A stretch of 33,444 nucleotides of DNA from a virus. The notes beneath the pieces are model-generated. The model worked only from the letters and a program-made list of their open reading frames with translations. It did not search any database and was not told the origin of the DNA. Position 1 is the first letter of the stretch. Every line of letters starts with the position of its first letter. Made by a program: the position numbers and the translations under genes. Below are positions 15,608 through 33,444 of this stretch, in pieces. The stretch is taken from positions 1 through 33,444 of IMG/VR virus record IMGVR_UViG_3300012361_000217, one strand, 5' to 3'.

Positions 15608-16012
15608 ATGACTACATTTTCAGGTTATCAGGGTAATACCCAGGCTTTAACAGGAAACCCCCTTAGTCCTAATGTTGGAGACTTTTATTATAATACAGTT
15701 AATAACGATTGGATGAGATGGAATGGGGTTAATTGGTTGGGTGCGGCTTATTCTACTACTACTTCTACTAGTACTTCTACTTCGACAACTACGTCTACTT
15801 CGACAACTACGTCGACTTCTACTTCTACAACGACTACTACTTCTACTACTACGACTTCAACATCTACTTCAACTACAACTTCTACGACAACTACAAGTAC
15901 CAGTACCACAACTACATCTACTTCTACGACAACTACGAGTACTTCTACTACAACGTCAACGACTACCAGTACATCAACGACTACCAGTACATCGACAACG
16001 ACTACTGCATGA
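15608..16012 (+). CDS. Mucin-like Ser/Thr-repeat virion protein 1
   Basis: 134 residues in two parts. Residues 1-48 are a small module (NPLSPNVGDFYYNTVNNDWM, then RWNGVNWLG) of the GD-x-Y-x-N/D-T...W-G-x-x-W type seen in phage fibre and appendage proteins. Residues 49-134 are almost only Thr and Ser (TTTSTSTSTSTTTSTS style), which would be an extended, potentially heavily O-glycosylated stalk. It follows the capsid gene by 60 nt and has two paralogues downstream. It may be a head fibre or decoration. The frame on the same strand in another register (Leu-rich) is a shadow. Confidence 0.75.
   Translation: MTTFSGYQGNTQALTGNPLSPNVGDFYYNTVNNDWMRWNGVNWLGAAYSTTTSTSTSTSTTTSTSTTTSTSTSTTTTTSTTTTSTSTSTTTSTTTTSTSTTTTSTSTTTTSTSTTTSTTTSTSTTTSTSTTTTA
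15751..16009 (+). repeat. Ser/Thr codon tract 1
   Basis: About 86 consecutive ACN, TCN and AGT codons. All four third bases are mixed for Thr, so the repetition is stronger in the protein than in the DNA. Short exact repeats survive (ACGACTACCAGTACATC occurs twice near 15958-15993). Confidence 0.8.
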
Positions 16013-16024
16013 TAATATAAATAT

Positions 16025-16297
16025 ATGCCAACACATTTAACTGATATAAAAGGAAGATATTTAATAGGAATAGGAATTGCGCCTATAGATCCTAATATTG
16101 GGGATGAATATTTTGATACGCAAAAAAATGTTTTATGCCGTTGGAGTGGAAGTAATTGGCTTTGTTATTTAATGAGTACAACTTCTACTTCTACTACGAC
16201 GACTACATCAACAAGTACGAGTACTAGTACCACGACTACGAGTACATCGACGACTACAACGACTAGTACCAGTACAAGTACAACAACAACTTTATAA
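16025..16297 (+). CDS. Mucin-like Ser/Thr-repeat virion protein 2
   Basis: 90 residues. A head module of about 50 residues (APIDPNIGDEYFDTQKNVLC, then RWSGSNWLC) followed by about 38 Ser/Thr residues ending TTTTL. It aligns with the first Ser/Thr protein over P-N-x-GD-x-Y/F-x-D/N-T and W-x-G-x-N-W, so it is a paralogue. The leader is AAATAT with no SD. Two Cys in the head module are extra compared with paralogue 1. Confidence 0.75.
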   Translation: MPTHLTDIKGRYLIGIGIAPIDPNIGDEYFDTQKNVLCRWSGSNWLCYLMSTTSTSTTTTTSTSTSTSTTTTSTSTTTTTSTSTSTTTTL

Positions 16298-16299
16298 AT

Positions 16300-16593
16300 A
16301 TGGGATCAACAAGATTTAATGCCGTAGAATCAAAATTAAAAACACTTCCGGGAACTTTTCCTACGGATGTTCCGCCTATTGGTGGAGATGCTTTTTATGA
16401 TACATTGAATAATTGTTTATGGGTTTTTAATGATTTGAAAAAACAATGGATGTATATGCAGTTGAGCACGACAACTTCAACTTCAACATCTACAACTACG
16501 ACTAGTACTTCAACAACGACTACTTCGACTAGTACAACCAGTTCGACAACTACGTCAACAAGTACTACGACAAGTACGACAACAACATTATAG
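16300..16593 (+). CDS. Mucin-like Ser/Thr-repeat virion protein 3
   Basis: 97 residues. Head module of about 55 residues (VPPIGGDAFYDTLNNCLWVF, then KKQWMYMQ) and a Ser/Thr tail of about 40 residues ending TTTTL, like paralogue 2. The start is 2 nt after the previous stop. The GD-AF-YDT-N...W pattern is shared with the other two. The shared tail ending and tandem order indicate duplication followed by divergence of the head module. Confidence 0.75.
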   Translation: MGSTRFNAVESKLKTLPGTFPTDVPPIGGDAFYDTLNNCLWVFNDLKKQWMYMQLSTTTSTSTSTTTTSTSTTTTSTSTTSSTTTSTSTTTSTTTTL

Positions 16594-16609
16594 AAAGGAG
16601 ATAAAAAAT

Positions 16610-17086
16610 ATGAGAATAATTTTTAATCCCGATAACGGGGCATCAATTAAAGATGTAACTTACGAAGGAGTAAAATACTTTTCGGAAAAATCGTTTGATC
16701 CGGGTACGCTTTTTAAATTTGAAGATGATTCTACGGGAGATTTTTTCTTAAATACTTTTGGTTTTTTAGAGCAGGTTGGTATTGATAAAGCTAAAAAAAT
16801 TATGGCTGAACCTACTATGAAATGTCTAAAATGTGATTATTCTACCCGTGTTAAAGCGTCTTTAACGGTACATGAAAAAAAGCATGTGGCTGAAGCTGAA
16901 CTTGATGAGTTGGGTATTCCGGTTGTAAGAATGACAAATGCCCAAAATTTACGTTCCACTATAGTAAATACTAACGTCCAGCAAAATATAGATAGTGAAG
17001 GTAAGGATTTTCATGATGGTTATCCCGGTTTAGAAGGGGAAGGGTTAATTAATGAAAATGTAAAATCAGGGGCAATAATGAGTTAA
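16610..17086 (+). CDS. Virion-region protein with a classical C2H2 zinc finger
   Basis: 158 residues. An N-terminal beta-rich part (about 1-66) precedes KCLKCDYSTRVKASLTVHEK-KH (C72, C75, H88, H92), an exact C-x2-C-x12-H-x3-H finger with the hydrophobic Leu at L85 and the CDYST turn usual in eukaryotic-type fingers. The C-terminal third is polar. It has one of the strongest SD sites of the window (AAAGGAGAT, 16594-16602), so it is probably abundant. Its place between the mucin-like proteins and another small virion-region gene suggests a structural or DNA-contacting role. Classical C2H2 fingers are uncommon in bacterial proteins. Confidence 0.75.
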   Translation: MRIIFNPDNGASIKDVTYEGVKYFSEKSFDPGTLFKFEDDSTGDFFLNTFGFLEQVGIDKAKKIMAEPTMKCLKCDYSTRVKASLTVHEKKHVAEAELDELGIPVVRMTNAQNLRSTIVNTNVQQNIDSEGKDFHDGYPGLEGEGLINENVKSGAIMS

Positions 17087-17090
17087 ATAT

Positions 17091-17438
17091 ATGATTAATA
17101 AACCTGCCGCAGCCCGGCAAAGATTCGTTTTTGTATCAGAAAATAATACTGATCGTTTCAAAATAATCGCTACGGCGGCATGTGAAGTGGCTTCCGTTAA
17201 TGTAACTGCGGGAGGTGCTGCTTGTGTGTTCCGTTTAGTTGATGCTAATAATTTTGTGGCGGGTCAACCGGCTCCTTCATATAACCTTGAATCGGGTCCA
17301 TCATTCGCGGCTGAACCGAGTAATTCGTATAGTCCTAATTTAAACCAACCTATTCCATTCCGAAAAGGGGTTGTGATAGTATGTGAGCAAGGAGAAGGAA
17401 GTAACGCGGAATGTATGGTTACTCTTAATGGAAATTAA
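17091..17438 (+). CDS. Small beta-rich protein, possible virion component
   Basis: 115 residues with an alternating hydrophobic pattern, three Cys and little charge (RFVFVSENNTDRFKIIATAA, later GPSFAAEPSNSYSP). The shape resembles a compact beta-sandwich of the type found in capsid or tail decorations, but I recognise no family. The start follows the C2H2 gene by 4 nt without SD. Confidence 0.6.
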   Translation: MINKPAAARQRFVFVSENNTDRFKIIATAACEVASVNVTAGGAACVFRLVDANNFVAGQPAPSYNLESGPSFAAEPSNSYSPNLNQPIPFRKGVVIVCEQGEGSNAECMVTLNGN

Positions 17439-17443
17439 AATAT

Positions 17444-17566: not shown

Positions 17567-17613
17567 GGAACTCACCTCCTGGATAGTGTTTATTTGACGT
17601 TTGCTTACCTGTT

Positions 17614-17676: not shown

Positions 17677-17684
17677 GTAATAAT

Positions 17685-17801: not shown

Positions 17802-18013
17802 GTAAATTAACGACTGAAGCTAGAAAAAAACTACCTTCATCTAAATATGCTTTACCCGCGAAAAAGGGTGAAGCTAATAGCGGTTCTTATCCGATTCCCG
17901 ATAAAACTCATGCCAGAGTAGCTAAAGCTTATGCGTCCCGTTTTGCCAGTCCTTCAGAAAAAGCTAAAATAGATGCTAAAGCTGACCGAGTTTTGAAACG
18001 TGGGAAAAAGTAA
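17798..18013 (+). CDS. DUF6582-like small phage protein
   Basis: 71 residues with the pattern KLPSSKYALP, SYPIPDKTHARVAKAYASRF and SPSEKAKIDAKADRVLKRG. The combination of a short FALP-type strand, YPI-D-K-HA-A and a basic C-terminal helix is a recurring small phage or virion-associated protein (DUF6582 type), often fused to or next to head proteins. Function is not established. It overlaps its neighbours on both sides (4 and 14 nt). Confidence 0.65.
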   Translation: MSKLTTEARKKLPSSKYALPAKKGEANSGSYPIPDKTHARVAKAYASRFASPSEKAKIDAKADRVLKRGKK

Positions 18014-18446
18014 TTCTTATCAAGCTATTTGGAAAAGAAAGGATAGAAAAAAGCATCCTGAAAAATATAAGAAAAGGATGCAAAAATATTATAAAAATAA
18101 TAGAAAAAAATTAATTAATAGAGTAAAAAAATATACAGAAGATAATAAAGAAAAGGTTAAGATTAGAAAAAATAAGCATTATATGGCTATCCGGGAAGCA
18201 AGAAGATGGGACAATATAAGAAAATTATATGGATTAAGTAAAGAAGATTATGATAAATTATATGTAAATCAACAAGGAAGATGTGCGGTCTGTAGAATTG
18301 AATTACCAGTTTTACATATAGACCACTTCCATGAAGATGGAACTATAAGAGGTTTACTTTGTGGTAAATGTAATAGGGGTATTGGATTATTTGATGATAA
18401 TATAGAATTATTAGAAGCAGTAATTAAATATCTTAGGAAAAGGTAA
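18000..18446 (+). CDS. Endonuclease VII-family nuclease
   Basis: 148 residues starting at GTG. A very basic helical N-terminus (about 1-70, Lys/Arg-rich) is followed by an Endonuclease VII domain: YGLSKEDYDKLYVNQQGRCA, VC as the first Cys pair (CAVC), LHIDHFHEDGTIRGLLCGKC (His-Asp-His core and second Cys pair CGKC), then NRGIGLFDDNIELLEAVIKY. The family includes T4 gp49, which resolves branched DNA, and free-standing HNH homing-type nucleases. The insertion-like place among tiny ORFs allows a homing role, but debranching before packaging is equally possible. Confidence 0.9.
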   Translation: MGKSNSYQAIWKRKDRKKHPEKYKKRMQKYYKNNRKKLINRVKKYTEDNKEKVKIRKNKHYMAIREARRWDNIRKLYGLSKEDYDKLYVNQQGRCAVCRIELPVLHIDHFHEDGTIRGLLCGKCNRGIGLFDDNIELLEAVIKYLRKR

Positions 18447-18461
18447 ACAAAGAAAATAAAT

Positions 18462-18638: not shown

Positions 18639-18652
18639 TGAAAGGAGGAATT

Positions 18653-18802: not shown

Positions 18803-18837
18803 TAAAAAAAGCATAATAAAATATGAAAGGAGGTAAC

Positions 18838-18897: not shown

Positions 18898-18900
18898 AAG

Positions 18901-19267: not shown

Positions 19268-20599
19268 ATGAAAAAGGTTGTAATTTTTACTTCGTTTTCA
19301 GATATTCAAAAGGCTTACAGTTTAAATATAATTGTTCAGTATCAAATAAAGATGCTGCTTTTAAATGGTTATGCTCCTACAGTAATTGTCCACGAATCAT
19401 TTAAGCCGGAAGGAATTTATGCTCACCCGAATGTTACGATAGAGAAAATTCCTAACATGCCTGTCTATAATGAGATGAAAAAAGATGAGACATTTGACAG
19501 GGATGTTGAAGTCTTAACATCAAGACTTTTTGAAATATTAAAAGATAAAGACATTGTGTTTACCCATGATATTATTTATCAAAATGCCTGCCTGAAACAT
19601 AATTTTGCCTCAAGGAAGGTTGCTGAAAAATTACCCGGTTTAAAATGGTTGCATTGGATTCATTCAGCTACTTCCCCTTTACTTTTGAATATGATCCGTC
19701 CTATTTTTTCGGACGCTTATGCTGATTTAGTTACTAAACCTTTTCCTAATAGTAAATATATTTATCCTAATTCTTATGCTGTGCCGGCAGTAGCGCATAA
19801 TTTTAATATTTCTCAGGAAGATGTACGTGTAGTTCCCCATCCTACGGATGTATGCGATTTTTTTGGAATGGATAAAAATATTGAAAAAATTATTTATATG
19901 TATGATATATTAAGTGCTGATGTGATTACTACTTATCCTATCCGTCTTGATAGGGGAAAACAGGTTGAATATGTTATTAAGACAATGAGCGCATTAAAAG
20001 ATTATGGTTTATCAATTAGAATTATAATTATTGATTTTCACTCATCGGGAGGGGATAAAGTTCGTTACCGTGATGAATTAAAACAACTTGGAATTGATTT
20101 GGGACTTAATAGCGATGAGCTTATTTTTATTTCTGAACAACGGGAAGAATATAAATATGAAGTTGATCCGAGAGTTGTAGCTATGTTTCAATGTATTTCA
20201 AATGTTTTTATAATGCCTTCTGTTTCTGAAACTTATTCGCTTATTACCCAAGAAGCCGGATTAACAAAACAAGTAGTTGTTTTAAATTATGATTTTCCTC
20301 CATTTAGAAGTATTTATGGTGAAAATGCGATATATAAAAAATATTCATCCCGTTTTGACATTATGGCTGATCCTGTCGAAGCAGTTATGCCTAATTCCCA
20401 GACTAAAACAGAATATGGATCAAGTGACTTACCTAAAGAAGCTAGAGGTGAAGCAGAAAAACAATATCACCGCGGAACAGCAGGGGAAATTGCGGCTAGA
20501 TTAAAACATCCTGAAATGGCATTGTCTACGTATTTAAGGAAAAACAGAAATTTGCAAGCCGTATTTAAAAAATTTATTGAGCCTTTATTATATGACTAA
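19268..20599 (+). CDS. GT-B glycosyltransferase (GT4-like)
   Basis: 443 residues. The N-terminal Rossmann half (MKKVVIFTSFSDIQKAYSLN) and the C-terminal half, which carries YPIRLDRGKQ (the Arg/Lys of GT4 enzymes) and PSVSETYSLITQEAG with the E-x7-E pair at E321 and E329, are typical of GT-B transferases using nucleotide sugars. It heads the sugar operon, which implies a first or central transfer step. The C-terminal about 80 residues are charged and unassigned. Acceptor and sugar cannot be told. Confidence 0.85.
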   Translation: MKKVVIFTSFSDIQKAYSLNIIVQYQIKMLLLNGYAPTVIVHESFKPEGIYAHPNVTIEKIPNMPVYNEMKKDETFDRDVEVLTSRLFEILKDKDIVFTHDIIYQNACLKHNFASRKVAEKLPGLKWLHWIHSATSPLLLNMIRPIFSDAYADLVTKPFPNSKYIYPNSYAVPAVAHNFNISQEDVRVVPHPTDVCDFFGMDKNIEKIIYMYDILSADVITTYPIRLDRGKQVEYVIKTMSALKDYGLSIRIIIIDFHSSGGDKVRYRDELKQLGIDLGLNSDELIFISEQREEYKYEVDPRVVAMFQCISNVFIMPSVSETYSLITQEAGLTKQVVVLNYDFPPFRSIYGENAIYKKYSSRFDIMADPVEAVMPNSQTKTEYGSSDLPKEARGEAEKQYHRGTAGEIAARLKHPEMALSTYLRKNRNLQAVFKKFIEPLLYD

Positions 20600-21368
20600 T
20601 GCTTGCGTAATTGGTTGGGGTACGGTTGGTAAAGCTACCGCTGAAACATTTAATATTGATAAATATTATAGTAGAAGTAGTAATAATATTAGTTTAGAAG
20701 AAGCATCTAAATGTGAATATATATTTATTTGTTTGCCTACTCCGGTTCAAGCTAATGGAGATTATTATGTCGAAGATATTACAAAGATTATTTCAGAATT
20801 ATCAAAATTTTCTTCTTTTGAGAAAAGTGTGGTTATTATCCGTTCAACAGTCTATCCGGGATATAATCTTAGTCTTAGAACAGAATATGGATGGATGAAT
20901 ATTGTTTCTAATCCTGAATTTTTAAGTGAAGATACATGGAAAGAAGATGCATTGAAACCTCAATTAGTTGTAATTGGAGCAGATAACGCGAATTTAAGAG
21001 ATAAAGTAGCTGCTTTATATCGTGGAAGGTTTAAATATAATGAACCTGTTGTCACCGATTCAGTTACAGCGGAATTTATAAAAATATCTCTTAATGCTTT
21101 TTTTACAGCTAAAGTTGTATTTGCTAATCAGCTATATGATTATTCCAGAATGATTAATGCTAATTATGAAACTGTTAAAGATATTATTGAATCTCATCTA
21201 TGGGGAAGTAAAAATCACTTTACGGTATTTCATAAAGGAGGGCGGGGAGCGGGAGGAAAATGTCTACGAAAGGATATAAAAGCTCTCGCTCATTTGGTTC
21301 CGGGTTCATTTTTCGGAAGTATTTACCATCATAATGAATTATACGTAACTAATAGTAATAAAACTTGA
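20592..21368 (+). CDS. UDP-glucose/GDP-mannose dehydrogenase-like enzyme, short form
   Basis: 258 residues from ATG 20592. The NAD-binding motif VIGWGTVGKA lies at the start; IRSTVYPG and NPEFLSEDTW are conserved in the family, AEFIKISLNAFFTAKVVFAN contains the substrate Lys/Asn pair, and GAGGKCLRKDIKAL holds the catalytic Cys (in GGxC-L-x-KD). Family members have about 400 residues with a C-terminal UDP-binding domain, which is missing here, so this is a minimal N-terminal plus central-domain form. It would oxidise a nucleotide sugar at C6 to the uronic acid. It overlaps the first glycosyltransferase by 8 nt. I used the ATG because the upstream TTG extension lies inside the previous gene. 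Confidence 0.85.
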   Translation: MTNACVIGWGTVGKATAETFNIDKYYSRSSNNISLEEASKCEYIFICLPTPVQANGDYYVEDITKIISELSKFSSFEKSVVIIRSTVYPGYNLSLRTEYGWMNIVSNPEFLSEDTWKEDALKPQLVVIGADNANLRDKVAALYRGRFKYNEPVVTDSVTAEFIKISLNAFFTAKVVFANQLYDYSRMINANYETVKDIIESHLWGSKNHFTVFHKGGRGAGGKCLRKDIKALAHLVPGSFFGSIYHHNELYVTNSNKT

Positions 21369-21369
21369 T

Positions 21370-22179
21370 ATGTTTAAAAATCCATATTTTGATACTTTAA
21401 ATAAAGATAATACTGCTAAAGTATATCCTGTTAAGGAAGTAGAAAATGCACCTAAAACAGAAATAGTAAAGGGATTTACTTCAATTATTATTCCTGTATT
21501 TTTTAATTCTTATCCGGTTTTTCATTATACCGGGCATTGTATAGGTTCAGTCAGAGAGCATACGGATAAGTCTAAAACTCCTTATGAAATTATAATGGTT
21601 CAAAATGGAGAAAATGGAGTTGAGCATTTTGAAGAGCAAACTTTTAAAAATACTTATTGCGATAAAGTAATACCTAATAAAGTTAATTTAGGTTATTCAA
21701 AAGCTGTAAATCAGGCAATTAGATGCGCTCAGGGTGAATATATAGCAATTATCAATAGTGACGTTTGCGTTTACGAACATTGGCTTGAAGATATGCAGGA
21801 AGCTTTAAGTTATGTTGATCTAGTTATGGCTCAACCAATGTATGGGATGCCTTTTGCGCGGGCAGTTGAATCAGCTGATTTTCGTAAGGAGACATTGGGG
21901 AAACCCGTTGAAGAATGTTTAGATACATTCCGGGATTTCTCTTGTGTCCTTACGAAAAAAGAAGTATTTGGAAGGGTAGGTCTTTTTAATGAAGAATTTT
22001 TCTTGTACGGGGAAGATTTAGATTTAATGCGTAGAATAGAAAAATCAGGTGGAAAAATAGCTTCTACAAAAAGAGTTAGAACATTTCATATTATTGGAGG
22101 AACAACAAGCGGAATGGATGAAACTTCTAAAATTATGGATGAAAGTAAAATTAAATTAAAAGAAATTTGGGGTTATTAA
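21370..22179 (+). CDS. Family 2 glycosyltransferase (rhamnosyltransferase-like)
   Basis: 269 residues. GT-A fold: FTSIIIPVFFNSYPVF (strand 1 and nucleotide site), YEIIMVQNGE, NLGYSKAVNQAIRCAQGEYI, then AIINSDVCV in place of a DxD, and FNEEFFLYGEDLDLMRRIEK (ED motif with the catalytic acid). This layout fits family 2 enzymes of the rhamnosyltransferase type. It should move one sugar onto a growing glycan or protein acceptor. Confidence 0.9.
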   Translation: MFKNPYFDTLNKDNTAKVYPVKEVENAPKTEIVKGFTSIIIPVFFNSYPVFHYTGHCIGSVREHTDKSKTPYEIIMVQNGENGVEHFEEQTFKNTYCDKVIPNKVNLGYSKAVNQAIRCAQGEYIAIINSDVCVYEHWLEDMQEALSYVDLVMAQPMYGMPFARAVESADFRKETLGKPVEECLDTFRDFSCVLTKKEVFGRVGLFNEEFFLYGEDLDLMRRIEKSGGKIASTKRVRTFHIIGGTTSGMDETSKIMDESKIKLKEIWGY

Positions 22180-22180
22180 A

Positions 22181-22966
22181 ATGAAAACATTTAGTATTAT
22201 TACTCCCATTTATTCATATAATGAACAAAAATCTCAAGAATTATATCGTTGTATAGAATCTATAAAACATCAAATTTATAATAAGGATTTAATTGAACAT
22301 ATCATTATCAATGATGGCAGTATTGTCCAATTAAAAATTCCTGACTATAGATGGATTAAAGTTATTAATCAACCTAACTTGCAAAGAATTACAGCATATA
22401 ATGAGGGTTTTAAAAAGGCTAAGAATGATATTTTTTGGATGTTGGATGCTGATGATGAATTAGTTCCGGAAGCATTATCTGTTATTAATGTTTATTGGGA
22501 AACTTATCCGAAATATAAGATGTTTAATTTTGGTTGTTTTTATGTTCATAAGGATGGGGTAATAACTAAAAGAGGAGTATTCCAACCAAAAGAAAAAAGA
22601 AAAGGACATGAAGTATTTGGAGGGGGAAATATTGTAAATGGAACTTATGTATTTAATAAAGATATTTATAAAAAACTAGGTGCTTTTCCTGAAAATGAGA
22701 TAAAAAATATAGATTGTAGTTCTTTGAATTATGGTGGAGTTAGAAATTTGTGTATGTCTAGTCCTTATGATTTTTCAGCTTGGTTTCAATTGGAATTTCC
22801 TGAAACTCAGCAATATTTTATGGTAGACCATGAAAATGAAAAGAATAAAATTATTAAAGAAATTGGTAATCCCTGGGGTCAGGATTACGCTTTGTTTTAT
22901 AAATATTTAAGGACATATTTATGTATGCCTATACCATTACTTTTAGAGAGAGTATATGTCAGATAA
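22181..22966 (+). CDS. Family 2 glycosyltransferase
   Basis: 261 residues. FSIITPIYSYNEQ at the start, HIIINDGS, ITAYNEGFKKAKNDIFWMLD then ADDELVPEAL gives the DxD-type metal motif (DADDE). The C-terminal part (WFQLEFPETQQYFMVDHENE) is less conserved. It lies 1 nt after the previous transferase and overlaps the KGG protein by 11 nt. Confidence 0.88.
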   Translation: MKTFSIITPIYSYNEQKSQELYRCIESIKHQIYNKDLIEHIIINDGSIVQLKIPDYRWIKVINQPNLQRITAYNEGFKKAKNDIFWMLDADDELVPEALSVINVYWETYPKYKMFNFGCFYVHKDGVITKRGVFQPKEKRKGHEVFGGGNIVNGTYVFNKDIYKKLGAFPENEIKNIDCSSLNYGGVRNLCMSSPYDFSAWFQLEFPETQQYFMVDHENEKNKIIKEIGNPWGQDYALFYKYLRTYLCMPIPLLLERVYVR

Positions 22967-23201
22967 GAAAATATTTATAAAAAAGAATCCTAATAGCGTG
23001 CATCCAACTGGACAAGCCGGATTTTCCAGTCCTAATTTTCCACATGACAGGAAAATGGAAATGGCAAGAAAAGGAGGTAGAAATAGCGGTAATGGTTTTG
23101 CGACTTTATCACCTGAAGAAATGCGCCGGATAGCTAAAAAAGGTTATGCGGCTATGAAAGCAGGAGTTAGAAAAGTAAAATTAGATCCTTTTGATGTATG
23201 A
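22956..23201 (+). CDS. KGG-motif small protein (YciG-like)
   Basis: 81 residues with MARKGGRNSGNGFATLSPEE and RIAKKGYAAMKAG, two units resembling the KGG stress-protein repeat. It is basic and disordered. KGG proteins appear in phages and sporulation or stress regulons without a clear mechanism. It interrupts the sugar operon and overlaps both neighbours (11 and 4 nt). Confidence 0.6.
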   Translation: MSDKKIFIKKNPNSVHPTGQAGFSSPNFPHDRKMEMARKGGRNSGNGFATLSPEEMRRIAKKGYAAMKAGVRKVKLDPFDV

Positions 23202-23947
23202 ATAAACCTATTGATATTTTTATTTTGTGTTATAAAAGGCCTCAATATACAAGACAAACTCTTAGTTATTTATATAAGCGTACTGGTTACCCATTCCGTA
23301 TTTTTTTATTAATTCAGGATAATGATTTATATACTAATTATCTAATAGATCATGAATTTAAAGATAAAATATTTATGAGGATTAATTTTTCAAAAAATAT
23401 TGGAGTTCATTCAGCTTGGAATATAGCATTAGCTCTTACGGAAAGTGAATATTTTATAACAAGCGATAATGATATTTATGTTCCTAAATTAGAGCCGGAT
23501 TGGCTAACTAAATTAGTTGGATTTTTAGATGAAAGACCGGATTATGGTGCAATTTCTCTTCATCCTCATGTTTTTATCGGAGCAGCAGGTATTGATCCGG
23601 ATGATTCTGAAGATGTTAAAGAAAGGAATATGTGCGGGGCTGTAATGAGAATTATGCGGCGTGATGCTGTTTGGAAAGCGGGGGGATGGGAAAATATAAT
23701 CCATGCCGGAAGGAATCATGAGGAGCGTACAATTTGTTTAAGGCTTCAGAATATTGGGTATAAAGTGGGGATAACTAGCCGGATTCGTGCTTATCATCCA
23801 TTTGGAAAAGATGTGGATAAAAATTCAGGATGGGGTTATACCGATTTTACGCCTGAAGAACAGGGACATAATCCGCAACTTAAAGATTATGTTTTACAAT
23901 TTGATAATCCGGATGCTTATGATAAAGATACTTTTCTACCTAAATAA
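23198..23947 (+). CDS. GT-A (family 2-like) glycosyltransferase
   Basis: 249 residues. IDIFILCYKRPQYTRQTLSY, IGVHSAWNIALALTESEYFI, SDNDIYVPKLEPDW (DxD-type) and IHAGRNHEERTICLRLQNIG support a GT-A transferase of the family 2 group. CYKRP is a recurring start in such phage and bacterial transferases. The C-terminal tail is acidic. It overlaps the KGG gene by 4 nt. Confidence 0.85.
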   Translation: MNKPIDIFILCYKRPQYTRQTLSYLYKRTGYPFRIFLLIQDNDLYTNYLIDHEFKDKIFMRINFSKNIGVHSAWNIALALTESEYFITSDNDIYVPKLEPDWLTKLVGFLDERPDYGAISLHPHVFIGAAGIDPDDSEDVKERNMCGAVMRIMRRDAVWKAGGWENIIHAGRNHEERTICLRLQNIGYKVGITSRIRAYHPFGKDVDKNSGWGYTDFTPEEQGHNPQLKDYVLQFDNPDAYDKDTFLPK

Positions 23948-23948
23948 T

Positions 23949-24731: not shown

Positions 24732-24733
24732 CT

Positions 24734-25617: not shown

Positions 25618-25810
25618 AGAAACGCTTTGTAAGCAATGTAGTAAACGTGTAAGGTCATCTTTATGGGAAAAAGACAAATTATGCGCTGCTTGTAGGACTA
25701 TTAATGGAGGTTATTACCGTTTAAAACACCATAAAAAGCTTGTGCGGGATTATACAAAACATATAAAACATAAACAGGCAAAAGAAATAAAAAAATTTAT
25801 ATATGATTAG
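25607..25810 (+). CDS. Small zinc-ribbon basic protein
   Basis: 67 residues with CKQC and CAAC pairs about 17 residues apart (residues about 8-11 and 27-30), followed by a very basic tail (KLVRDYTKHIKHKQAKEIKK). A four-Cys zinc site plus a basic tail suggests nucleic-acid binding. It overlaps the next transferase by 8 nt. Confidence 0.6.
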   Translation: MKNKETLCKQCSKRVRSSLWEKDKLCAACRTINGGYYRLKHHKKLVRDYTKHIKHKQAKEIKKFIYD

Positions 25811-26669
25811 TCAGTCTGATGTAACTATTATTATTCCTACACTTAACCGTACGGATGACCAAAAGAGAGCTTTTATGGAATGTATTAAATCTTTAAACGA
25901 GACAATTCCTGAAATGAAAAAAATTATTGTTATAAATGGATTAGATTTTCAAAGTGATTTTGATTTATGGGGAGAAGTAGATAAAAAAACAACATCTATT
26001 ATGACTTTAGAAGAGCAGGGACAGTGTAAGGCGGTTAATGCGGCTATTGCGACTATAAATACACCTTGGATATTTATAACAAACGATGACATGATTTATG
26101 CGCCTGGATGGTGGGAAAAATTAACAGATTTATCTTGGTTTGGAAAAGAAGAAATAAAAGCTATATCGCCTATGCTTATTGAACCACGATCTGGTGCCCC
26201 AACTTTTATCATTCAATTTTTTGGTGGTGCTGGAGGAGATTTTAATAAACAAAGTTGGTTAGAATATGCAAAAAATTGGAATGTAGCAACTTCTGGTAAA
26301 TGGAAAACTGGATTTAATTTTCCTTTATTAATAAAGCGTAAACTGTGGAATACAATTGAAGGTTATGATATTAATTATGATCCATGGGGAAGTAATGGAG
26401 ATTCAGATTTGGAATATAAAATTAAATTAGCGGGTATTCAACCATATCAAAATACTAATTGTATTGTTTATCATTTTAGTCAAACTAGTGGAACTTTTGA
26501 GCCTAAAAATGATTCCTATAGATTTAAAAATTATGCTTATTTTAAAGAAAAATGGGGATTTGACCGTACCGATAATGGAATATGGGAAGCCGATTTTAAA
26601 ATTCCGACAAAAGAAGAAGGGAGGATATATTTTCCTGAATGGGAAAATAAATATACTAAACAATTATGA
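25803..26669 (+). CDS. Family 2 glycosyltransferase
   Basis: 288 residues. VTIIIPTLNRTDDQKRAFME, QGQCKAVNAAIATINTPWIF, ITNDDMIYAPGW (DxD-like NDD) and YDPWGSNGDSDLEYKIKLAG (acidic motif) place it in the GT-A family 2 group. The C-terminus ends in a charged extension. It is preceded by an 8-nt overlap and followed by a 4-nt overlap. Confidence 0.88.
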   Translation: MISQSDVTIIIPTLNRTDDQKRAFMECIKSLNETIPEMKKIIVINGLDFQSDFDLWGEVDKKTTSIMTLEEQGQCKAVNAAIATINTPWIFITNDDMIYAPGWWEKLTDLSWFGKEEIKAISPMLIEPRSGAPTFIIQFFGGAGGDFNKQSWLEYAKNWNVATSGKWKTGFNFPLLIKRKLWNTIEGYDINYDPWGSNGDSDLEYKIKLAGIQPYQNTNCIVYHFSQTSGTFEPKNDSYRFKNYAYFKEKWGFDRTDNGIWEADFKIPTKEEGRIYFPEWENKYTKQL

Positions 26670-27631
26670 AAATAGGACTTGTGGGTAATTTTCAACAATC
26701 GCCTAGCGGTGAGATAGCGGATGAAGTACATATTGCTAGATCAATGGAAGAATTGGGACATGAAGTCTATAAGATTCCCCGTGATGAATGGCGTGAATAT
26801 GTAATAGAAAATTCGCCTAAAGATAAATATAAAGTTCCTGAAGATATTCAGATGGATATTGTTATTTTTGCTAAATGGCATCATTTTTATGATGGGTCTT
26901 TTATACAGTTTGCCAGGGAAAAATATAAATGTCCTGTTTTTTATTGGGTATGGGATAGTGTTGATTTAGGAATAGAATGGCATAAAAAGATGGCCCAGCA
27001 AGCAGATTTATATCTTTCCGGTGAATTAGGTCGTGTAAGTGAATTTCATAAAAATGATATTAGATTTTACTATTTTCAGTTTGATAGCGTAGATGGATCT
27101 GTGCCTTATGTTTTTACACAAACTAGATTAGATGTAGTTTATTTAGGTTCATGTGATAATCAAAATGGAAGAGTAGATTTACTTAAAGCAATTAATAAAG
27201 AAATTCCGGTTATTGTTTATGGTCCTGATTATGAGGAGTGGAAAAGACAGGGATTTGAAGCTCGACCTGCTGTTTTTGGAATAGAAGCTAATAAAATTAT
27301 TGCACAAGCGAAAGTAGTGTTAGGAACTTCTTGCGATCCTCATTTATATGGATATTGGAGCAATAGAGTCGGAAGAGTTTTATATACCCGTGGTAAATTA
27401 CTTCAACAATATACTCCCGGAATGGAGAATTTTTTACATGATTGGGTTGAATATTATTCAACTCCGGAGGAAGCTATAGAAAAGATAAAGATTCTTCTTT
27501 CGTTTACTTATAAAGAAATTAAAGGTTTTGATTATAATCAATGGTCATCTTTTAATAAAGTAAAAGATTTATTAATTATGATAGAAAGATATTTAAAGGA
27601 AGATTGCGGAAGGGAGTGGAAATTGCCATGA
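26666..27631 (+). CDS. GT-B glycosyltransferase-like protein (CgeB/Glyco_trans_1_2 type)
   Basis: 321 residues. KIGLVGNFQQSPSGEIADEV at the N-terminus and VVLGTSCDPHLYGYWSNRVG, then KLLQQYTPGMENFLHDWVEY and TPEEAIEKI at the C-terminus resemble the CgeB/YkvP-type GT-B transferases, where the last motif binds the nucleotide. Other parts are divergent. It shares an ATGA overlap with the next small gene. Confidence 0.75.
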   Translation: MKIGLVGNFQQSPSGEIADEVHIARSMEELGHEVYKIPRDEWREYVIENSPKDKYKVPEDIQMDIVIFAKWHHFYDGSFIQFAREKYKCPVFYWVWDSVDLGIEWHKKMAQQADLYLSGELGRVSEFHKNDIRFYYFQFDSVDGSVPYVFTQTRLDVVYLGSCDNQNGRVDLLKAINKEIPVIVYGPDYEEWKRQGFEARPAVFGIEANKIIAQAKVVLGTSCDPHLYGYWSNRVGRVLYTRGKLLQQYTPGMENFLHDWVEYYSTPEEAIEKIKILLSFTYKEIKGFDYNQWSSFNKVKDLLIMIERYLKEDCGREWKLP

Positions 27632-27816
27632 GCGTTATTACAGATAGTAAAGTAATAATTTCTTCTTTATTAAAAAAGCTTTCAAAAGAGGAAAATTTAC
27701 TGGATACTCAATCTGACAAATTAAGATTTAAAAGAATGATGGCTCATTTGGCAGATGCTTATCTTTGGTTAAAAGAAATCGAAGAAGTAGAAAAAAATAA
27801 AAATTATGAAAAATAG
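27628..27816 (+). CDS. Small helical protein of unknown function
   Basis: 62 residues from ATG 27628 (MSVITDSKVIISSLLKKLSK), rich in Lys/Glu helices. The ATG overlaps the previous stop (ATGA), which I prefer to an upstream in-frame start that would lie inside the transferase. It overlaps the next tiny gene by 11 nt. Confidence 0.55.
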   Translation: MSVITDSKVIISSLLKKLSKEENLLDTQSDKLRFKRMMAHLADAYLWLKEIEEVEKNKNYEK

Positions 27817-27931
27817 ATCATGGGGAATATGTTTTTTATTATTAGGGATAGTTGTTTCTGTAATATTTTATCCTATTTTTAGTTTAATATCATTTTTACT
27901 TATATTAGGATTAGTTTTACTTGACCCTTAA
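27806..27931 (+). CDS. Tiny single- or double-pass membrane protein, 41 residues
   Basis: MKNRSWGICFLLLGIVVSVI followed by a second hydrophobic half ending LLDP. Basic N-terminus, then nearly continuous hydrophobicity, suggests a helical hairpin in the membrane. The 11-nt overlap with the preceding ORF repeats the junction style of this operon. Confidence 0.5.
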   Translation: MKNRSWGICFLLLGIVVSVIFYPIFSLISFLLILGLVLLDP

Positions 27932-27940
27932 TTTTAAATT

Positions 27941-28894
27941 ATGCGCATTGCAATAGCAGATAATAATAATAAAAAGTTTACTGGGGATATTATTAATCAC
28001 TGGGAATCTCTTGGTCATGAAGTGCGATTTGAGACAGGGGCTTCTGAAAAATTGGCTCAGTGGGCTGATATTTATTGGATTGATACTTGGGATAATAATA
28101 TTCATTATCTTTGGAAACTTTATCACGGAGTTGATGGTGTATCACGGACTGATCCCTGGGATAATAATAAAAAACCTTTAATTATAGTAAGGGCTTTAGA
28201 TTGGGAAGTATGGATAGGGCTTATGCGGGATCAAGCTATTATAGATTGGGTTGATAAAATAGTATTTATAGCAGATCATATTAAAGAGAAAGTAAATCAG
28301 GAAGTTAAAATTAGCAACGATAAACAAAGAGTGATAAAACCGGGAGTTAATCTAGATAGGTTTACTTTAAAGTCTAAACAGACAGATGGATTTCAATTAG
28401 GAATGGTTTTGGGAGATATGTGGAAATATAAGAATCATATAGGAGGATTGGATATTTTTACTTCTTTATACCAAAAAGATAATAGATGGAGACTTCATGT
28501 GAGAGGACAACATGAAAATAGTATGTATGATCCGGCTAATTGGAATTATTATCTTGATTCAAGAGGAATCCGTGAAGCTGTAACTTTATATGGACACCAA
28601 AATAATATGAATGAATGGTTGGAAAATATTGATGTGATGCTTCATCCCGGACAAAAAGAAGCTTTTTGCTATGCGATTGGTGAAGCAATGGCTAAAAATA
28701 TTCCTGTTTTTATAAATGATTTCTTAGGTAGTCAGAATATTTGGCCTTTTTCTCTTTTATATGAAACTCACGAAGAAGTTATACATAAGTTAAATGATAA
28801 TCAGATATTAAACTTTAATTATAGGGAATATATTCAAAAATATTATTCTAATGAGCGTATGTTTAAAGAAATAGATGAATTTATAAATTTATGA
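27941..28894 (+). CDS. GT-B glycosyltransferase (GT4-like)
   Basis: 317 residues. MRIAIADNNNKKFTGDIINH, VIKPGVNLDRFTLK (the PNGVD-like motif of GT4), GMVLGDMWKYKNHIGGLDIF and HPGQKEAFCYAIGEAMA, with E-x7-E spacing between KEA and GEA, fit a GT4-type retaining GT-B transferase. It is shorter than the cellular average. Confidence 0.85.
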   Translation: MRIAIADNNNKKFTGDIINHWESLGHEVRFETGASEKLAQWADIYWIDTWDNNIHYLWKLYHGVDGVSRTDPWDNNKKPLIIVRALDWEVWIGLMRDQAIIDWVDKIVFIADHIKEKVNQEVKISNDKQRVIKPGVNLDRFTLKSKQTDGFQLGMVLGDMWKYKNHIGGLDIFTSLYQKDNRWRLHVRGQHENSMYDPANWNYYLDSRGIREAVTLYGHQNNMNEWLENIDVMLHPGQKEAFCYAIGEAMAKNIPVFINDFLGSQNIWPFSLLYETHEEVIHKLNDNQILNFNYREYIQKYYSNERMFKEIDEFINL

Positions 28895-29181
28895 TATTTG
28901 TAATATTATTTGTATTACTTTTTGTAAGCTTAGTAGTTAATATATCTGCTTTATTTTTGATAAAAAATTATAAAGCAGTAATTAATGACTTAATTGAATG
29001 GAGGGATATTTCTGAAATAACTATTAAATCTTTAGTTGACGAAGTAAAAAAAATAGAAATAATAGAATTAAAATTAGCAGAAAGAACAATAATTAAAGAC
29101 GCAAAAAAAAGGGAAAGAAAGAAAAAAGAAAAAATAACTCCTTTAGTAGAAAAAGTAGATATTTTAAAAGATTATAACTAA
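28891..29181 (+). CDS. Membrane-anchored coiled-coil protein
   Basis: 96 residues: one N-terminal transmembrane helix (about 1-25) and a long Lys/Glu-rich coiled coil. It overlaps the previous transferase by 4 nt. It might tether a complex at the membrane, for instance the transferases; this is inference only. Confidence 0.55.
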   Translation: MIFVILFVLLFVSLVVNISALFLIKNYKAVINDLIEWRDISEITIKSLVDEVKKIEIIELKLAERTIIKDAKKRERKKKEKITPLVEKVDILKDYN

Positions 29182-29183
29182 TT

Positions 29184-29855
29184 ATGAATAAATGGGATGA
29201 GAAAAAACAAATAGCGATAGTAGAAGCTGATGATTTTCAGGATCGTTGGGACAGGAATGGACTCAATTTTCTTTTTGCATGGAAAGCAAAATATCCTAAT
29301 TTTAAAATAACTCTTTATACAATACCGGATAGAATTTCTAGTAATATGCTTAATCTCTTAAAATCTCATAAAGATTGGATTGGATTAGCAATCCATGGAT
29401 GGAATCATGAAAGTAATTTTGAATGTTATGGTTGGGATTATGAGAGAACACAGATGTTTATGTCAAGAATAGATACGGTTTTTACTTTTAGTAAGAATTT
29501 TAAAGCTCCCGGATGGTCAATAACACCGGATTTAAACGGTTATCCCGCCAATGAAAAAGATCCAATTATAAAAGATCCATCAGCGGTTTATAAAGCTTTA
29601 ACTGATATGGATTTTATGATTTGTGATAGACATTATAATAAACCTGCTAGACCCAAAAATTCTAAAATAATATGTATTGATTGTAATCCGGATATTGTTC
29701 ATTTCCATACCTGGAATATACCTAGTTCAGATCCTAATGGAAGGAATGGATTTCAAGATATTGAAGAAAGATTTGGAGTTCCGTGGGATCAAAATACTAA
29801 ATTTTATTTTATGTCCGAAGCTTGGGATAAGGGGTTAATTCAGCCTTGTAAATAA
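29184..29855 (+). CDS. Polysaccharide deacetylase-like (NodB-related) protein
   Basis: 223 residues. IAIVEADDFQDRW (acidic pair of motif 1), LAIHGWNHESNFECYGWDYE (the HGW-x-H motif 2 with two His and a Glu), FKAPGWSITPDL (motif 3, usually RPPxG) and later VHFHTW (motif 5 His) resemble the NodB/DUF2334 deacetylase fold, a metal-dependent enzyme removing acetyl groups from sugar amides. The substitution in motif 3 and the short length leave activity uncertain. In the sugar operon it could trim acetylated sugars of the phage glycan or the host wall. Confidence 0.7.
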   Translation: MNKWDEKKQIAIVEADDFQDRWDRNGLNFLFAWKAKYPNFKITLYTIPDRISSNMLNLLKSHKDWIGLAIHGWNHESNFECYGWDYERTQMFMSRIDTVFTFSKNFKAPGWSITPDLNGYPANEKDPIIKDPSAVYKALTDMDFMICDRHYNKPARPKNSKIICIDCNPDIVHFHTWNIPSSDPNGRNGFQDIEERFGVPWDQNTKFYFMSEAWDKGLIQPCK

Positions 29856-29868
29856 AGGGGGTGATTTT

Positions 29869-30024
29869 ATGGATAAAAAAATGTATTGCATGAAATGTAA
29901 AGAACTTAAAGAATATAAAAATGCTACAGATACCGTTTTGCGTAATGGAAGAAAAGCCAGTACAGCTCAATGTATTACTTGTGGAACTAAAATGTATAAG
30001 ATGAAAGGAGGTGATAAAAAATGA
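29869..30024 (+). CDS. DUF5679-like zinc-ribbon protein, 51 residues
   Basis: MDKKMYCMKCKELKEYKNAT, then TVLRNGRKASTAQCITCGTK. The C-x2-C...NGR-A...C-x2-CGTK layout is that of the small DUF5679 zinc-ribbon family common in phages. An SD (AAAGGGGGTGAT) precedes the ATG by 4 nt. The stop overlaps the next ATG (ATGA). Confidence 0.75.
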   Translation: MDKKMYCMKCKELKEYKNATDTVLRNGRKASTAQCITCGTKMYKMKGGDKK

Positions 30025-30269
30025 AGGATATTGAGGTAATTAATCAAGCAGCTTCTAATGGTTTAATCTCAGACGAGGACGCTATAGCTTTGCATACTAC
30101 AGGTATAACTTATTGTTTAAAACTTAATAAGTTAGCTAAGCAGTTAAAAGATATAGTAGAAGTACAGGAAAAAGAAGATGATAAATATCAGGAAGAAAGA
30201 CTTACTGTTCTCAATGCTATTAATCCTGAATTAGCATTAAGAGTATTTAGTACTGATAAAACAGGATAA
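30021..30269 (+). CDS. Small protein of unknown function
   Basis: 82 residues, mostly helical, acidic in the second half (EVQEKEDDKYQEERLTVLNA). It has a full SD (AAAGGAGGTGAT) located inside the end of the zinc-ribbon gene, making it one of the few clearly SD-driven genes of the operon. No family is recognised. Confidence 0.6.
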   Translation: MKDIEVINQAASNGLISDEDAIALHTTGITYCLKLNKLAKQLKDIVEVQEKEDDKYQEERLTVLNAINPELALRVFSTDKTG

Positions 30270-30279
30270 TATTTTTTGT

Positions 30280-30309
30280 TTATAGTTAATAGTTATCTAT
30301 TAACTATAA
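30280..30309 (+). promoter_or_regulatory. Perfect 13-bp AT-rich hairpin before the last transferase
   Basis: TTATAGTTAATAG (30280-30292), loop TTAT, CTATTAACTATAA (30297-30309). There is no U-tract after it on either strand, so it is not a standard terminator. It sits in the 50-nt gap before ATG 30320 and could be an operator, an RNA stabiliser or a processing site. Confidence 0.45.
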
Positions 30310-30319
30310 AAGAGAAAAT

Positions 30320-31279
30320 ATGAAAATAAATACATTTGTTATTCCTATTATCCGTTCAGACTATATTGAGCGTATGTTATTTACGTTGTATCGCTATACT
30401 CAAGCTGATAGATTTAATGTAATTGTTATAGACCAGACACAAGATGATGAAGCGCAAAAAAAGTGTCAAAAATATGCTCATTTATGGATTAAAAGCTATA
30501 GAAATTTAGGATTTGCTAAAGCTATGAATACAGGAATTAGGTTAGCAGATACAAAATATATAACTCTCGCTAATGATGATATTGAGTTTATAGATTCGAG
30601 ATGGTTTCAGGGAATTATTGATACATTTGCACAGGATAGTAAAATTATAGCGGTTAATCCAATGAGTCCAAAAGAAGCTAGTTGGGGTTACGGTTTATCT
30701 AATGATAATAAAGAAATTTGGCAACCGCCTCAAGGGTTTTATCCTATTGATGATAAAAGTGGAATTGTACCTATTGTTAATGGAAAACCCTTTATTTATC
30801 AGGAACAGTTTTCAGAAGAAGAATATAATTCTCTTTTAGAAAATCATCCGACATGGAGTAAGGGAAGTTGTTGTGATGCTATTGCTATGTGGTGTACTGT
30901 CTTTAAAAAAACAGGGTTAGAAGAAATAGGATTATTGGATGAGAAGTTTTTTCCCGGAGGCGGAGAAGATTATGATATGAACGCGAGGGCATATTCTTGT
31001 GCATATCCTAAACCTATAGATGAATGTGACGTTGACTTTCATAGACGGATGGTTGGTACTTCTAAAAGTTGGGTTTGGCATCATTGGTCTAAAAGCCGTA
31101 ATATGACGCTTGATAATAAAGAAAGTAAATATCTAAATTCACGTCCCCGTTGGAATAATAACGATGAATTATGGCCTAACGGATTTGATTGTTGGGGCCA
31201 TAGTCATAAAGTTATAAATGATAAAGACGTTAAGATTCCTCTTCAGAGAGTACCATTTGTATTTACAGATGAGTTGTGA
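30320..31279 (+). CDS. Family 2 glycosyltransferase
   Basis: 319 residues. FVIPIIRSDYIERMLFTLYR, FNVIVIDQTQDD, NLGFAKAMNTGIRLADTKYI, TLANDDIEFIDSRW (NDD as DxD-type motif), IGLLDEKFFPGGGEDYDMNA (ED acid) and SWVWHHWSKSRNMT (C-terminal His region) are family 2 motifs. It is the last enzyme of the sugar operon and sits behind the AT-rich hairpin. Confidence 0.9.
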   Translation: MKINTFVIPIIRSDYIERMLFTLYRYTQADRFNVIVIDQTQDDEAQKKCQKYAHLWIKSYRNLGFAKAMNTGIRLADTKYITLANDDIEFIDSRWFQGIIDTFAQDSKIIAVNPMSPKEASWGYGLSNDNKEIWQPPQGFYPIDDKSGIVPIVNGKPFIYQEQFSEEEYNSLLENHPTWSKGSCCDAIAMWCTVFKKTGLEEIGLLDEKFFPGGGEDYDMNARAYSCAYPKPIDECDVDFHRRMVGTSKSWVWHHWSKSRNMTLDNKESKYLNSRPRWNNNDELWPNGFDCWGHSHKVINDKDVKIPLQRVPFVFTDEL

Positions 31280-31291
31280 TATCATGGGGGC

Positions 31292-31783
31292 ATGAAGTAT
31301 ATTTTGCTTACTCAAAATAGAAAAACTTTAATAGATGATGAAGATTTTGAATGGTTGAATCAATATAAGTGGAGTGTAAATAGTAGTAATTATCCTAGTA
31401 GATATGGATATATAAACGGTAAAAGAGTTTTTATTACAATACATAGATTTATAATGAACCCTCCTGTTAGAATGCAAGTAGATCATATTAATGGAAATAG
31501 ATTTGATAATAGAAAAGAAAATCTAAGGATATGTACTAGATCGCAAAATTGTACAAATAGAAAATCTTGGAAACCGAATATTTCTGGTTATAGAGGAGTA
31601 ACTTTTCATAAAACTACTAAAAAATGGAGAGCAACTATAAAGATAAAACAACAAAAAATATCTTTGGGATTATTTTTTATTAAAGAACAGGCCGCTCTTG
31701 CTTATAATAAAGCTGCAATAGCATATTTTGGTGAATATGCAGTTTTAAATAATATTCCTTCTTCTTTCTCAGAGAATACCTAA
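31292..31783 (+). CDS. HNH endonuclease with AP2 DNA-binding domain
   Basis: 163 residues. An HNH core (TIHRFIMNPPVRMQVDHING, then NRFDNRKENLRICTRSQN, with the His-Asn-His set) is followed by an AP2 domain (GYRGVTFHKTTKKWRATIKI, then LGLFFIKEQAALAYNKAAIA). This two-domain layout is typical of phage homing endonucleases. It lies between the sugar operon and the fibre gene and has a G-rich string (GGGGGC) just before the ATG. Homing into the fibre/sugar junction is plausible. Confidence 0.92.
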   Translation: MKYILLTQNRKTLIDDEDFEWLNQYKWSVNSSNYPSRYGYINGKRVFITIHRFIMNPPVRMQVDHINGNRFDNRKENLRICTRSQNCTNRKSWKPNISGYRGVTFHKTTKKWRATIKIKQQKISLGLFFIKEQAALAYNKAAIAYFGEYAVLNNIPSSFSENT

Positions 31784-31839
31784 AATTCATATAGACGAGT
31801 TATAGTTTCCTCTTTGTTTATTCTTCGACTTAAATCTTC

Positions 31840-31845
31840 TACAAT
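31840..31845 (+). promoter_or_regulatory. Candidate -10 box of the fibre gene
   Basis: TACAAT lies 6 nt before ATG 31852, which would give a leaderless message, as at several other genes here. The -35 region is poor (TTTATT at 17 nt), so this is tentative. Confidence 0.3.
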
Positions 31846-31851
31846 CGTTTT

Positions 31852-33444
31852 ATGGCGTTTTCAACAAAGGTTGGTTCATTTGCTTTAAATACTTCTACAG
31901 GTAATCAAGCAGTTACCGGCGTTGGATTTCAACCAAAAGTAGTACTTTTTTATTTTACACCTGAAACTGCTGATAATAAGGACGGAAATGTTGCTAGTGA
32001 TTTTTCATTTGGTATTGGTGTTTCTTCAAGTAGCCGGGCTAGTATAGACTTTTCCGGAGGGAGTACAAATGCTACACGTACCACAGATACAAAGTGCATT
32101 ACTTACATAAGTATTGCCGGTGTAACTTTAATGGAGGCAGATTTAGTAAGTCTTGACTCAGACGGATTTACTATAAATATTACTACTGCTCCTCTATCGG
32201 CTTTTATTCTTAACTATTTTGCGTTAGGAGGTGCTGATTTAACTAATGTTGCTTTAAAAGAAATTACCGCGCCTGCTTCTACGGGTAGTCAAGCCACAAC
32301 GGGTGTGGGTTTTAAACCTGATGCACTTTTAATTATTACTGCCGGACTAACAACTGCGGTTACTACTAATACTACTAATGCTATTTTTGGTATAGGATTT
32401 GGGCAATCTTCAACTAAGCGCGGTTATTCATCGGTTTTTAATGGAAATAGAATTGAATTAACTACTAAAGTAATAGGCGCGTTAGCTTCAGGTACTACTA
32501 AATCAATTGAGGCTGACTTAACTTCTTTAGATAGTGATGGGTTTACATTAAATTTTTCTACTACTACCAGCGGAGCTTTTCTTTGGGTTTTATGTTTAAA
32601 AGGAGGTAGCTATTTTGTAGGTAGTGATACTCAAAAAACTAGTACAGGAACTAAGGCTAATACCGGACCGGGTTTTCAGCCTACCGGAATTATATTAACA
32701 AGCGTAGATAATACTGCCAGTTCGTCAATTAATACTTCAGCAGGAAGAATGACGATTGGAGCTGCAAGTGCGACTACTGCTCGCGGTTATATATGGGGAG
32801 GAGAACTTGTTTCGCTAGGAACAACTAATAGTAGAGCATTAAATAGGTCCAATGTGATTGGAATGTTAGTAGAAGGTTCTACAGTAACTACAAATGCGGA
32901 AGCTGATTTGTCTTCGTTCGACTCTACCGGATTTACTCTAAATTGGGGAACGGCTGATGCTACCGCTAGAGAATTTTTAATATTTGCTGTAGGAAATTCA
33001 GCGGGTACTACTACTTCGACTACTACTACAACTTCAACTACGACTTCAACTACTACTACTTCGACAAGTACATCTACTACAACTACTTCGACTTCAACCT
33101 CAACGACTACTACTAGTACTTCAACTACGACAACTACATCAACTTCAACATCTACTACGACGACTAGTACGAGTACCAGTACTACAACTTCAACCAGTAC
33201 TTCAACAACAACTACTTCAACATCTACTACTACTTCTACTTCAACTTCGACAAGTACGTCTACAACAACGACTAGTACAAGTACCACAACTTCAACTTCA
33301 ACAAGTACTTCAACTACTACTACTTCCACCAGTACCTCGACCACTACGACTTCGACCTCAACTACTACTACCACCTCAACTTCCACTTCGACTACGACTA
33401 CTTCAACCTCAACTTCTACCACGACTACGTCGACTTCGACTACA
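31852..33444 (+). CDS. Three-domain fibre protein with long Ser/Thr tail, cut by window edge
   Basis: An ATG at 31852 opens 531 codons without stop to the right edge. Residues about 1-385 hold three copies of a beta-rich domain, starting near residues 16, 144 and 265 with TG-x-x-A-x-TG-x-GF-x-P and ending with L-x-S-x-DS-x-GFT-x-N (LVSLDSDGFTIN, LTSLDSDGFTLN, LSSFDSTGFTLN). From residue 386 to the edge (at least 146 residues) it is Thr and Ser only. The fold suggests a tail-fibre or receptor-binding surface protein with a mucin-like stalk, the same tail style as the three proteins after the capsid gene. No SD is present. Confidence 0.75.
   Translation, partial: MAFSTKVGSFALNTSTGNQAVTGVGFQPKVVLFYFTPETADNKDGNVASDFSFGIGVSSSSRASIDFSGGSTNATRTTDTKCITYISIAGVTLMEADLVSLDSDGFTINITTAPLSAFILNYFALGGADLTNVALKEITAPASTGSQATTGVGFKPDALLIITAGLTTAVTTNTTNAIFGIGFGQSSTKRGYSSVFNGNRIELTTKVIGALASGTTKSIEADLTSLDSDGFTLNFSTTTSGAFLWVLCLKGGSYFVGSDTQKTSTGTKANTGPGFQPTGIILTSVDNTASSSINTSAGRMTIGAASATTARGYIWGGELVSLGTTNSRALNRSNVIGMLVEGSTVTTNAEADLSSFDSTGFTLNWGTADATAREFLIFAVGNSAGTTTSTTTTTSTTTSTTTTSTSTSTTTTSTSTSTTTTSTSTTTTTSTSTSTTTTSTSTSTTTSTSTSTTTTSTSTTTSTSTSTSTSTTTTSTSTTTSTSTSTSTTTTSTSTSTTTTSTSTTTTTSTSTSTTTTSTSTSTTTTSTSTT
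33007..33444 (+). repeat. Ser/Thr codon tract 2, continues past the window
   Basis: At least 146 Ser/Thr codons with scrambled synonymous codons, in the 3' part of the fibre gene. The long Val/Glu-rich frame on the opposite strand is a mirror of these codons, not a gene. Confidence 0.85.

Follow-up and report, generated by a model that had tools for sequence, protein, structure and literature searches.

The stretch of DNA analyzed here, called the window throughout, is the linear IMG/VR virus record IMGVR_UViG_3300012361_000217 (33,444 bp). It is a fragment of a tailed phage, as judged by its gene content (terminase, portal, phrog_371-type capsid protein, D5-like primase/helicase, and CHAP lysin), and it carries four genes for proteins with pure serine/threonine (S/T) tails on either side of a 12-gene sugar operon (19268 to 31279).

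Three of these proteins are encoded on the plus strand directly 3′ of the capsid gene. The first, p1 (15608-16012), consists of a virion-type domain of 48 amino acids (aa; GDxYYNT..WNGxxW) and a C-terminal tail of 85 aa of pure S/T; p2 (16025-16297) and p3 (16300-16593) combine the same domain with a pure S/T tail of 39 aa and with a 41-aa S/T tail ending in TSTTTTL, respectively, and in all three the S/T run extends nearly to the last residue. The p1 domain gives weak matches to virion structural and connector PHROGs, and a profile search with the tail domain found no solved structure. The fourth gene (plus strand, from 31852 past the contig edge at 33444) encodes a fibre-like part of ∼385 residues, followed from residue 386 by an S/T tract that the contig end cuts after no fewer than 145 residues; this protein has a 25% match to a fibre of locus L214 that combines a minor tail protein domain with an S/T tract of its own. 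Pooled, the four tracts comprise 310 residues, every one of them S or T, in agreement with an earlier note on this DNA, which had described four proteins with pure S/T tails, three after the capsid gene and one fibre. Chance is excluded as the origin of such tracts; the next-longest S/T run among the open reading frames (ORFs) of the window has 4 residues, and its ordinary proteins contain 10.6% S+T. The tract codons are mixed (ACN 213, TCN 66, AGY 31) and the tract DNA contains only weak tandem repeats, which indicates that purity is maintained at the protein level. Adjacent serines are scarce in the window tails (1 SS in 310 residues versus ∼29 expected, summed over the four tails); avoidance of SS was considered as a recognition rule and dropped as a requirement, SSS being common in the relative L002.

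The sugar operon and its first enzyme

Between p1-p3 and the fibre gene, 12 genes on the plus strand encode, by Pfam matches and motifs, eight glycosyltransferases (five GT2 and three GT-B) and four other enzyme-like proteins. The first gene (19268-20599) encodes a GT4-like GT-B glycosyltransferase, recognized by a weak Pfam match (E = 0.0017), an EX7E motif, and AlphaFold/Foldseek, and referred to below simply as GT-B. It is followed by a short UDP-sugar dehydrogenase-like gene (20592-21368), the GT2 genes a (21370-22179; PF00535, 2.9e-17), b (22181-22966; PF00535, 2.2e-17), and c (23198-23947; PF00535, 5.8e-10; at most 68% identity in relatives), an NAD-dependent sugar epimerase/dehydratase of the SDR type (23949-24731; PF01370, 4.7e-25; start codon uncertain), an S-adenosylmethionine methyltransferase (24734-25369; PF08241, 3e-16), GT2 d (25803-26669; PF00535, 7e-8), a GT-B enzyme of the Glyco_trans_1_2 type (26666-27631; PF13524, 1.8e-7), a GT4-family enzyme (27941-28894; PF00534, 1.4e-10), a NodB (polysaccharide deacetylase)-like protein (29184-29855; motifs only), and GT2 e (30320-31279; PF00535, 7.8e-14). 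The eight glycosyltransferases, epimerase, and methyltransferase that the earlier note had placed between the tail genes are thus all recovered, by Pfam and, for GT-B, also by AlphaFold/Foldseek. All 12 genes lie on one strand, and several small unrelated ORFs are interspersed among them, a correction to its picture of one nearly gapless operon. Endonuclease VII-like and HNH-AP2 homing-type genes lie on either side of the operon (18000-18446 and 31292-31783).

Two further labels from that note stand only in part. The dehydrogenase-like protein (∼258-263 aa) matches the NAD and central domains of the Pfam UDP-glucose/GDP-mannose dehydrogenase family and keeps the catalytic cysteine motif (GGKC), but it lacks the C-terminal UDP-binding domain, so the domain set of a UDP-glucose 6-dehydrogenase (N-terminal, central, and C-terminal UDP binding) is incomplete. 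Relatives occur in 27 loci and are similarly short in L199, L204, L206, and L207; the protein may act on another or a protein-bound sugar. The deacetylase-like protein shows the NodB-type motifs EADDF, HGWNH, KAPGW, and HFHTW, largely kept in L199, but its model is poor (predicted local distance difference test [pLDDT], 37.8), and it found no match in Pfam, PHROG, or NCBIfam, no convincing one in PDB, and no relative among viral contigs. Transmembrane prediction over the operon detected no membrane helix in any sugar enzyme. Among the window genes scanned, there was no flippase, polymerase, lipid-linked initiator, or oligosaccharyltransferase, no DNA-modification gene, and no SecA2/SecY2 or second initiator gene.

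GT-B matched no curated family above the cutoff. Its AlphaFold (AF2) model, built from a 36-sequence alignment, reached a pLDDT of 91.7, and Foldseek matched it to the retaining GT4 enzymes MshA and BshA with E values down to 1.9e-15, at low TM scores (0.30 to 0.37) that possibly reflect a different orientation of the two GT-B domains. Residues E321 and E329 of the EX7E motif and an HWxHS motif are invariant in the 36 sequences, and the model indicates a retaining GT4-type GT-B fold with two Rossmann domains. Neither GT-B nor GT2 c had a tblastn match among 50,697 deposited phage records.

Association of GT-B with S/T tracts

When viral contigs were searched with GT-B alone, so that tails played no part in the selection, 51 loci were obtained, of which 39 carry an S/T tract of at least 12 residues and 33 one of at least 30, compared to none of 51 random viral loci (508 kb). 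Clustering at 70% identity left 29 of 40 GT-B clusters S/T positive (Fisher P ∼ 5e-15). In 35 of 38 loci, the tract nearest to GT-B shares its strand, and in 30 it is no more than 2 kb away. Of the loci that are negative at the locus level, three (L205, L211, and L221) have long tracts elsewhere on their contigs. The association holds with GT-B sequences diverged to ∼30% identity, with varied scaffolds, and in loci without a recognizable related capsid. GT2 genes are likewise found on 25 of 29 GT-B contigs of at least 20 kb versus 2 of 18 random ones. Tail-less relatives of the capsid (10 loci, 36 to 41% identity) have neither an S/T tract (0/10) nor a GT2 gene on their records.

The reverse search relied on the 48-residue domain, with the tail excluded and the profile, too diverse to scan as it was, reduced to four rows. 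It returned 32 loci, 13 with an S/T tail and 19 without. GT-B lies 1 to 3 kb downstream in 10 of the 13 tailed loci, the remaining three having 0.6, 2.7, and 6.0 kb of sequence downstream; in the tail-less loci, where the domain sits within a long structural protein, GT-B was found in none (0/19). Near copies among the tailed loci reduce them to ∼9 independent phages. Structural proteins contain the tail-bearing domain again, and in one of them it is accompanied by a head decoration domain, which supports a location in the virion. The connection between tails and operon, which the earlier note had drawn from co-occurrence and gene order, is favored in both directions by this comparison, of a kind that the note had asked for. 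A scan with a generic S/T DNA pattern was also tried as a search route; it returned mostly T-rich internal linkers and was replaced by the domain- and enzyme-based searches.

The tails themselves are conserved in a peculiar way. The first tract has exactly 85 residues in the window, L002, L185, and L187, at a DNA identity there of 53 to 62%, and in most relatives the p2 and p3 tracts have 39 and 41 residues, vary in S/T order, and usually end in TSTTTT followed by a single small or aliphatic residue. The comparison indicates that selection acts on tail length and S/T content rather than on the exact sequence, and such a pattern, with order drifting, is what a glycan scaffold predicts. Tails also occur on unrelated scaffolds, including the mini-domain, other small virion-type proteins (L195, L201, L206, L218, and L220), and fibres, with S/T tracts of 400 to 600 residues in the fibres of L215 and L219; nearly pure S/T proteins of 51 and 192 residues are encoded immediately 5′ of GT-B in L213 and L216. 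As side observations, the GT-B contig G021 (L243:415-10830) encodes three large proteins with S/T tracts of 25 to 420 residues, and the GT-B contigs of G079 (L294 and L295) encode four different proteins with S/T tails at their C termini.

Outside phages, GT-B is rare in bacterial chromosomes, with 1 in 140 in the family of the Luminiphilus genome that carries it and, by a peptide pattern, 3 loci in 84,980 species. The convergent neighbor of the Luminiphilus gene encodes a small protein of the exported type, with an S/T/G tail at its end. In a second proteobacterium (L237:9320-11386), GT-B carries a sulfotransferase-like domain (weak Pfam match) fused to its N terminus, and the small exported-type protein encoded next to it has a tail rich in T. 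A further locus, L236, lies on a phage contig that had been placed in a Neomarinimicrobiota genome bin; it combines GT-B with tracts of 182 and 224 residues.

As for the neighborhood of the tail genes, the major capsid gene (14633-15547, plus strand; phrog_371 major head protein, E = 2.3e-25) served as the synteny anchor and has 24 relatives among the GT-B loci. On the other side, also on the plus strand, lie a conserved adjoining gene with a weak C2H2-like motif (16610-17086) and a small conserved gene without a PHROG family (17091-17438), whose product appears by eye similar to small S/T-tailed proteins of L206 and L195. The left contig end (1-215) is a 15/30-bp tandem repeat, pentapeptide-like; repeats occur at both ends of the contig and probably broke the assembly there.

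Probable virion glycosylation and competing readings

We consider it likely that this phage glycosylates its own virion, with the S/T tails as acceptors and the operon supplying the enzymes. On head and tail proteins alike, the tails would act as unstructured tags that accept sugars and can be moved from one protein to another. In the cytoplasm of the infected cell, GT-B would add the first sugar to tail serines or threonines, and the GT2 and GT-B/GT4 enzymes would then lengthen the chain stepwise, with the short dehydrogenase, epimerase, methyltransferase, and NodB-like protein making or trimming sugars, uronic or methylated ones probably among them. Once glycosylated, the proteins would assemble into virions whose capsid and fibres bear a mucin-like brush of sugars; its possible benefits are shielding of the particle, protection from aggregation, or help with adsorption.

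Several points weigh against self-glycosylation. The case is built from genes, a predicted fold, the tails, and a two-way genomic association, and it is from these that we infer the chemistry, initiator, sugar identity, virion location, and benefit. The loci are partly related, so that the counts are inflated and not fully independent. Three of the 29 GT-B contigs of at least 20 kb (L209, L212, and L225) lack any S/T tract, showing that the enzyme is not bound exclusively to such tails. L002, with its three tails and no transferase, is the one candidate for the combination that the earlier note had named as counting against its proposal, but it is a 19.9-kb fragment. T-rich internal linkers occur in other phages without GT-B in 44 of 49 cases, and hence an S/T tract alone does not imply this system, although GT-B with such linkers (5/49) is still enriched relative to random contigs (0/50). 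Finally, Foldseek is blind to the difference between peptide and small-molecule acceptors, and MshA and BshA use small molecules.

This last point also favors a variant that overlaps with self-glycosylation as outlined above, in which the tails are glycosylated but GT-B elongates the chain or makes a sugar, whereas a phage GT2 or a host enzyme initiates. There are eight candidate transferases, and GT2 b and GT2 c are widely kept too; yet distant S/T contigs keep GT-B with few GT2 genes (one in G026, none in G040 and G041), and in two bacterial chromosomes it is GT-B that adjoins proteins with S/T-type tails. We regard this variant as possible but somewhat doubtful and propose GT-B as the initiating Ser/Thr O-glycosyltransferase of the operon. 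More broadly, and with a little less than even confidence, we speculate that GT-B represents a new enzyme family that O-glycosylates Ser/Thr in peptides, with the near-pure S/T tail as its substrate signature. Phages and a few bacteria would append this tag to very different proteins, and tail plus enzyme would form a portable glycan-brush module giving mucin-like virion coats across many uncultured lineages.

It is unlikely that the operon instead remodels host surface polysaccharide for superinfection exclusion or receptor masking, the tails being mere flexible spacers and the linkage a product of shared phage ancestry. O-antigen-modifying phage glycosyltransferases are common, a GtrB-like PHROG was weakly matched, and in L209 GT-B lies within a GDP-sugar/epimerase cluster devoid of S/T tracts. 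However, membrane anchors are absent from the operon, no flippase, polymerase, or enzyme for lipid-linked initiation was identified in it, and it fits neither a Wzx/Wzy nor a GtrABC scheme. Moreover, the same domain lacks GT-B when tail-less and mostly has it when tailed, and the association persists where no related capsid is recognizable. Very improbable, in our view, is modification of phage DNA (glucosylated or hypermodified bases): phage DNA glucosylation exists generally, and one DNA alpha-glucosyltransferase appears at rank 40 of the viral fold list, but no base-modifying partner was identified in the window, the UDP-sugar dehydrogenase, epimerase, and NodB-like protein suit glycans, and the S/T linkage would be left unexplained. 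Host polysaccharide and phage DNA were the alternatives offered by the earlier note, and both are weakened by the transmembrane prediction and the scan of the window genes. To the idea that the tracts are repeat DNA that has expanded, with no role at the protein level, we give practically no credence: weak period-6 and longer repeats are present, but the mixed ACN/TCN/AGY codons, the 310/310 purity, and the fixed lengths at 53 to 62% DNA identity contradict it.

If self-glycosylation is true, mucin-like coats of the phages' own making would be found on many tailed phages that have not been cultured, and ideas on their adsorption, stability, and recognition would change. Virion glycosylation would become predictable from sequence through the combination of S/T tail and GT-B, and the two together would offer a genetically simple system for placing dense O-glycans on proteins in bacteria.

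Relation to known systems

No description of S/T-tail phages was found in the open literature searched. Long T/S tracts in structural proteins are shared with the T-rich linkers of phage fibres, but these are internal, T dominated, and often flanked by Pro/Ala, and they seldom come with GT-B. MshA and BshA are the closest solved folds to GT-B, with the EX7E pair kept; they differ in their small acceptors and in sequence (∼15% identity), and the invariant HWxHS is a motif of the window family's own. A functional parallel may be the streptococcal serine-rich repeat adhesin Fap1, which is O-glycosylated stepwise inside the cell, onto the protein backbone, by Gtf1/2-Gtf3-dGT1-GalT2-Gly, with variable extra transferases (PMC5207161). 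In the window, too, soluble transferases are encoded beside an S/T-rich acceptor, whereas the streptococcal system has a two-protein initiator and accessory Sec export, neither of which was identified among the window genes scanned.

Glycosylation of virions by phage enzymes is already known, as the earlier note had pointed out. In the mycobacteriophages Che8, Corndog, and Myrna, phage-encoded glycosyltransferases modify capsid and tail-tube proteins and shield them from antibodies, according to the account of Freeman et al. 2023 given in PMC12363180. Like these phages, the window encodes glycosyltransferases of its own, but it has eight of them together with sugar-modifying enzymes, dedicated small proteins and a fibre with pure S/T tails, and a GT-B family unmatched in the deposited phage records, which should include the mycobacteriophages. 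In comparison with both systems, the putative dedicated mucin-like substrate stands out.

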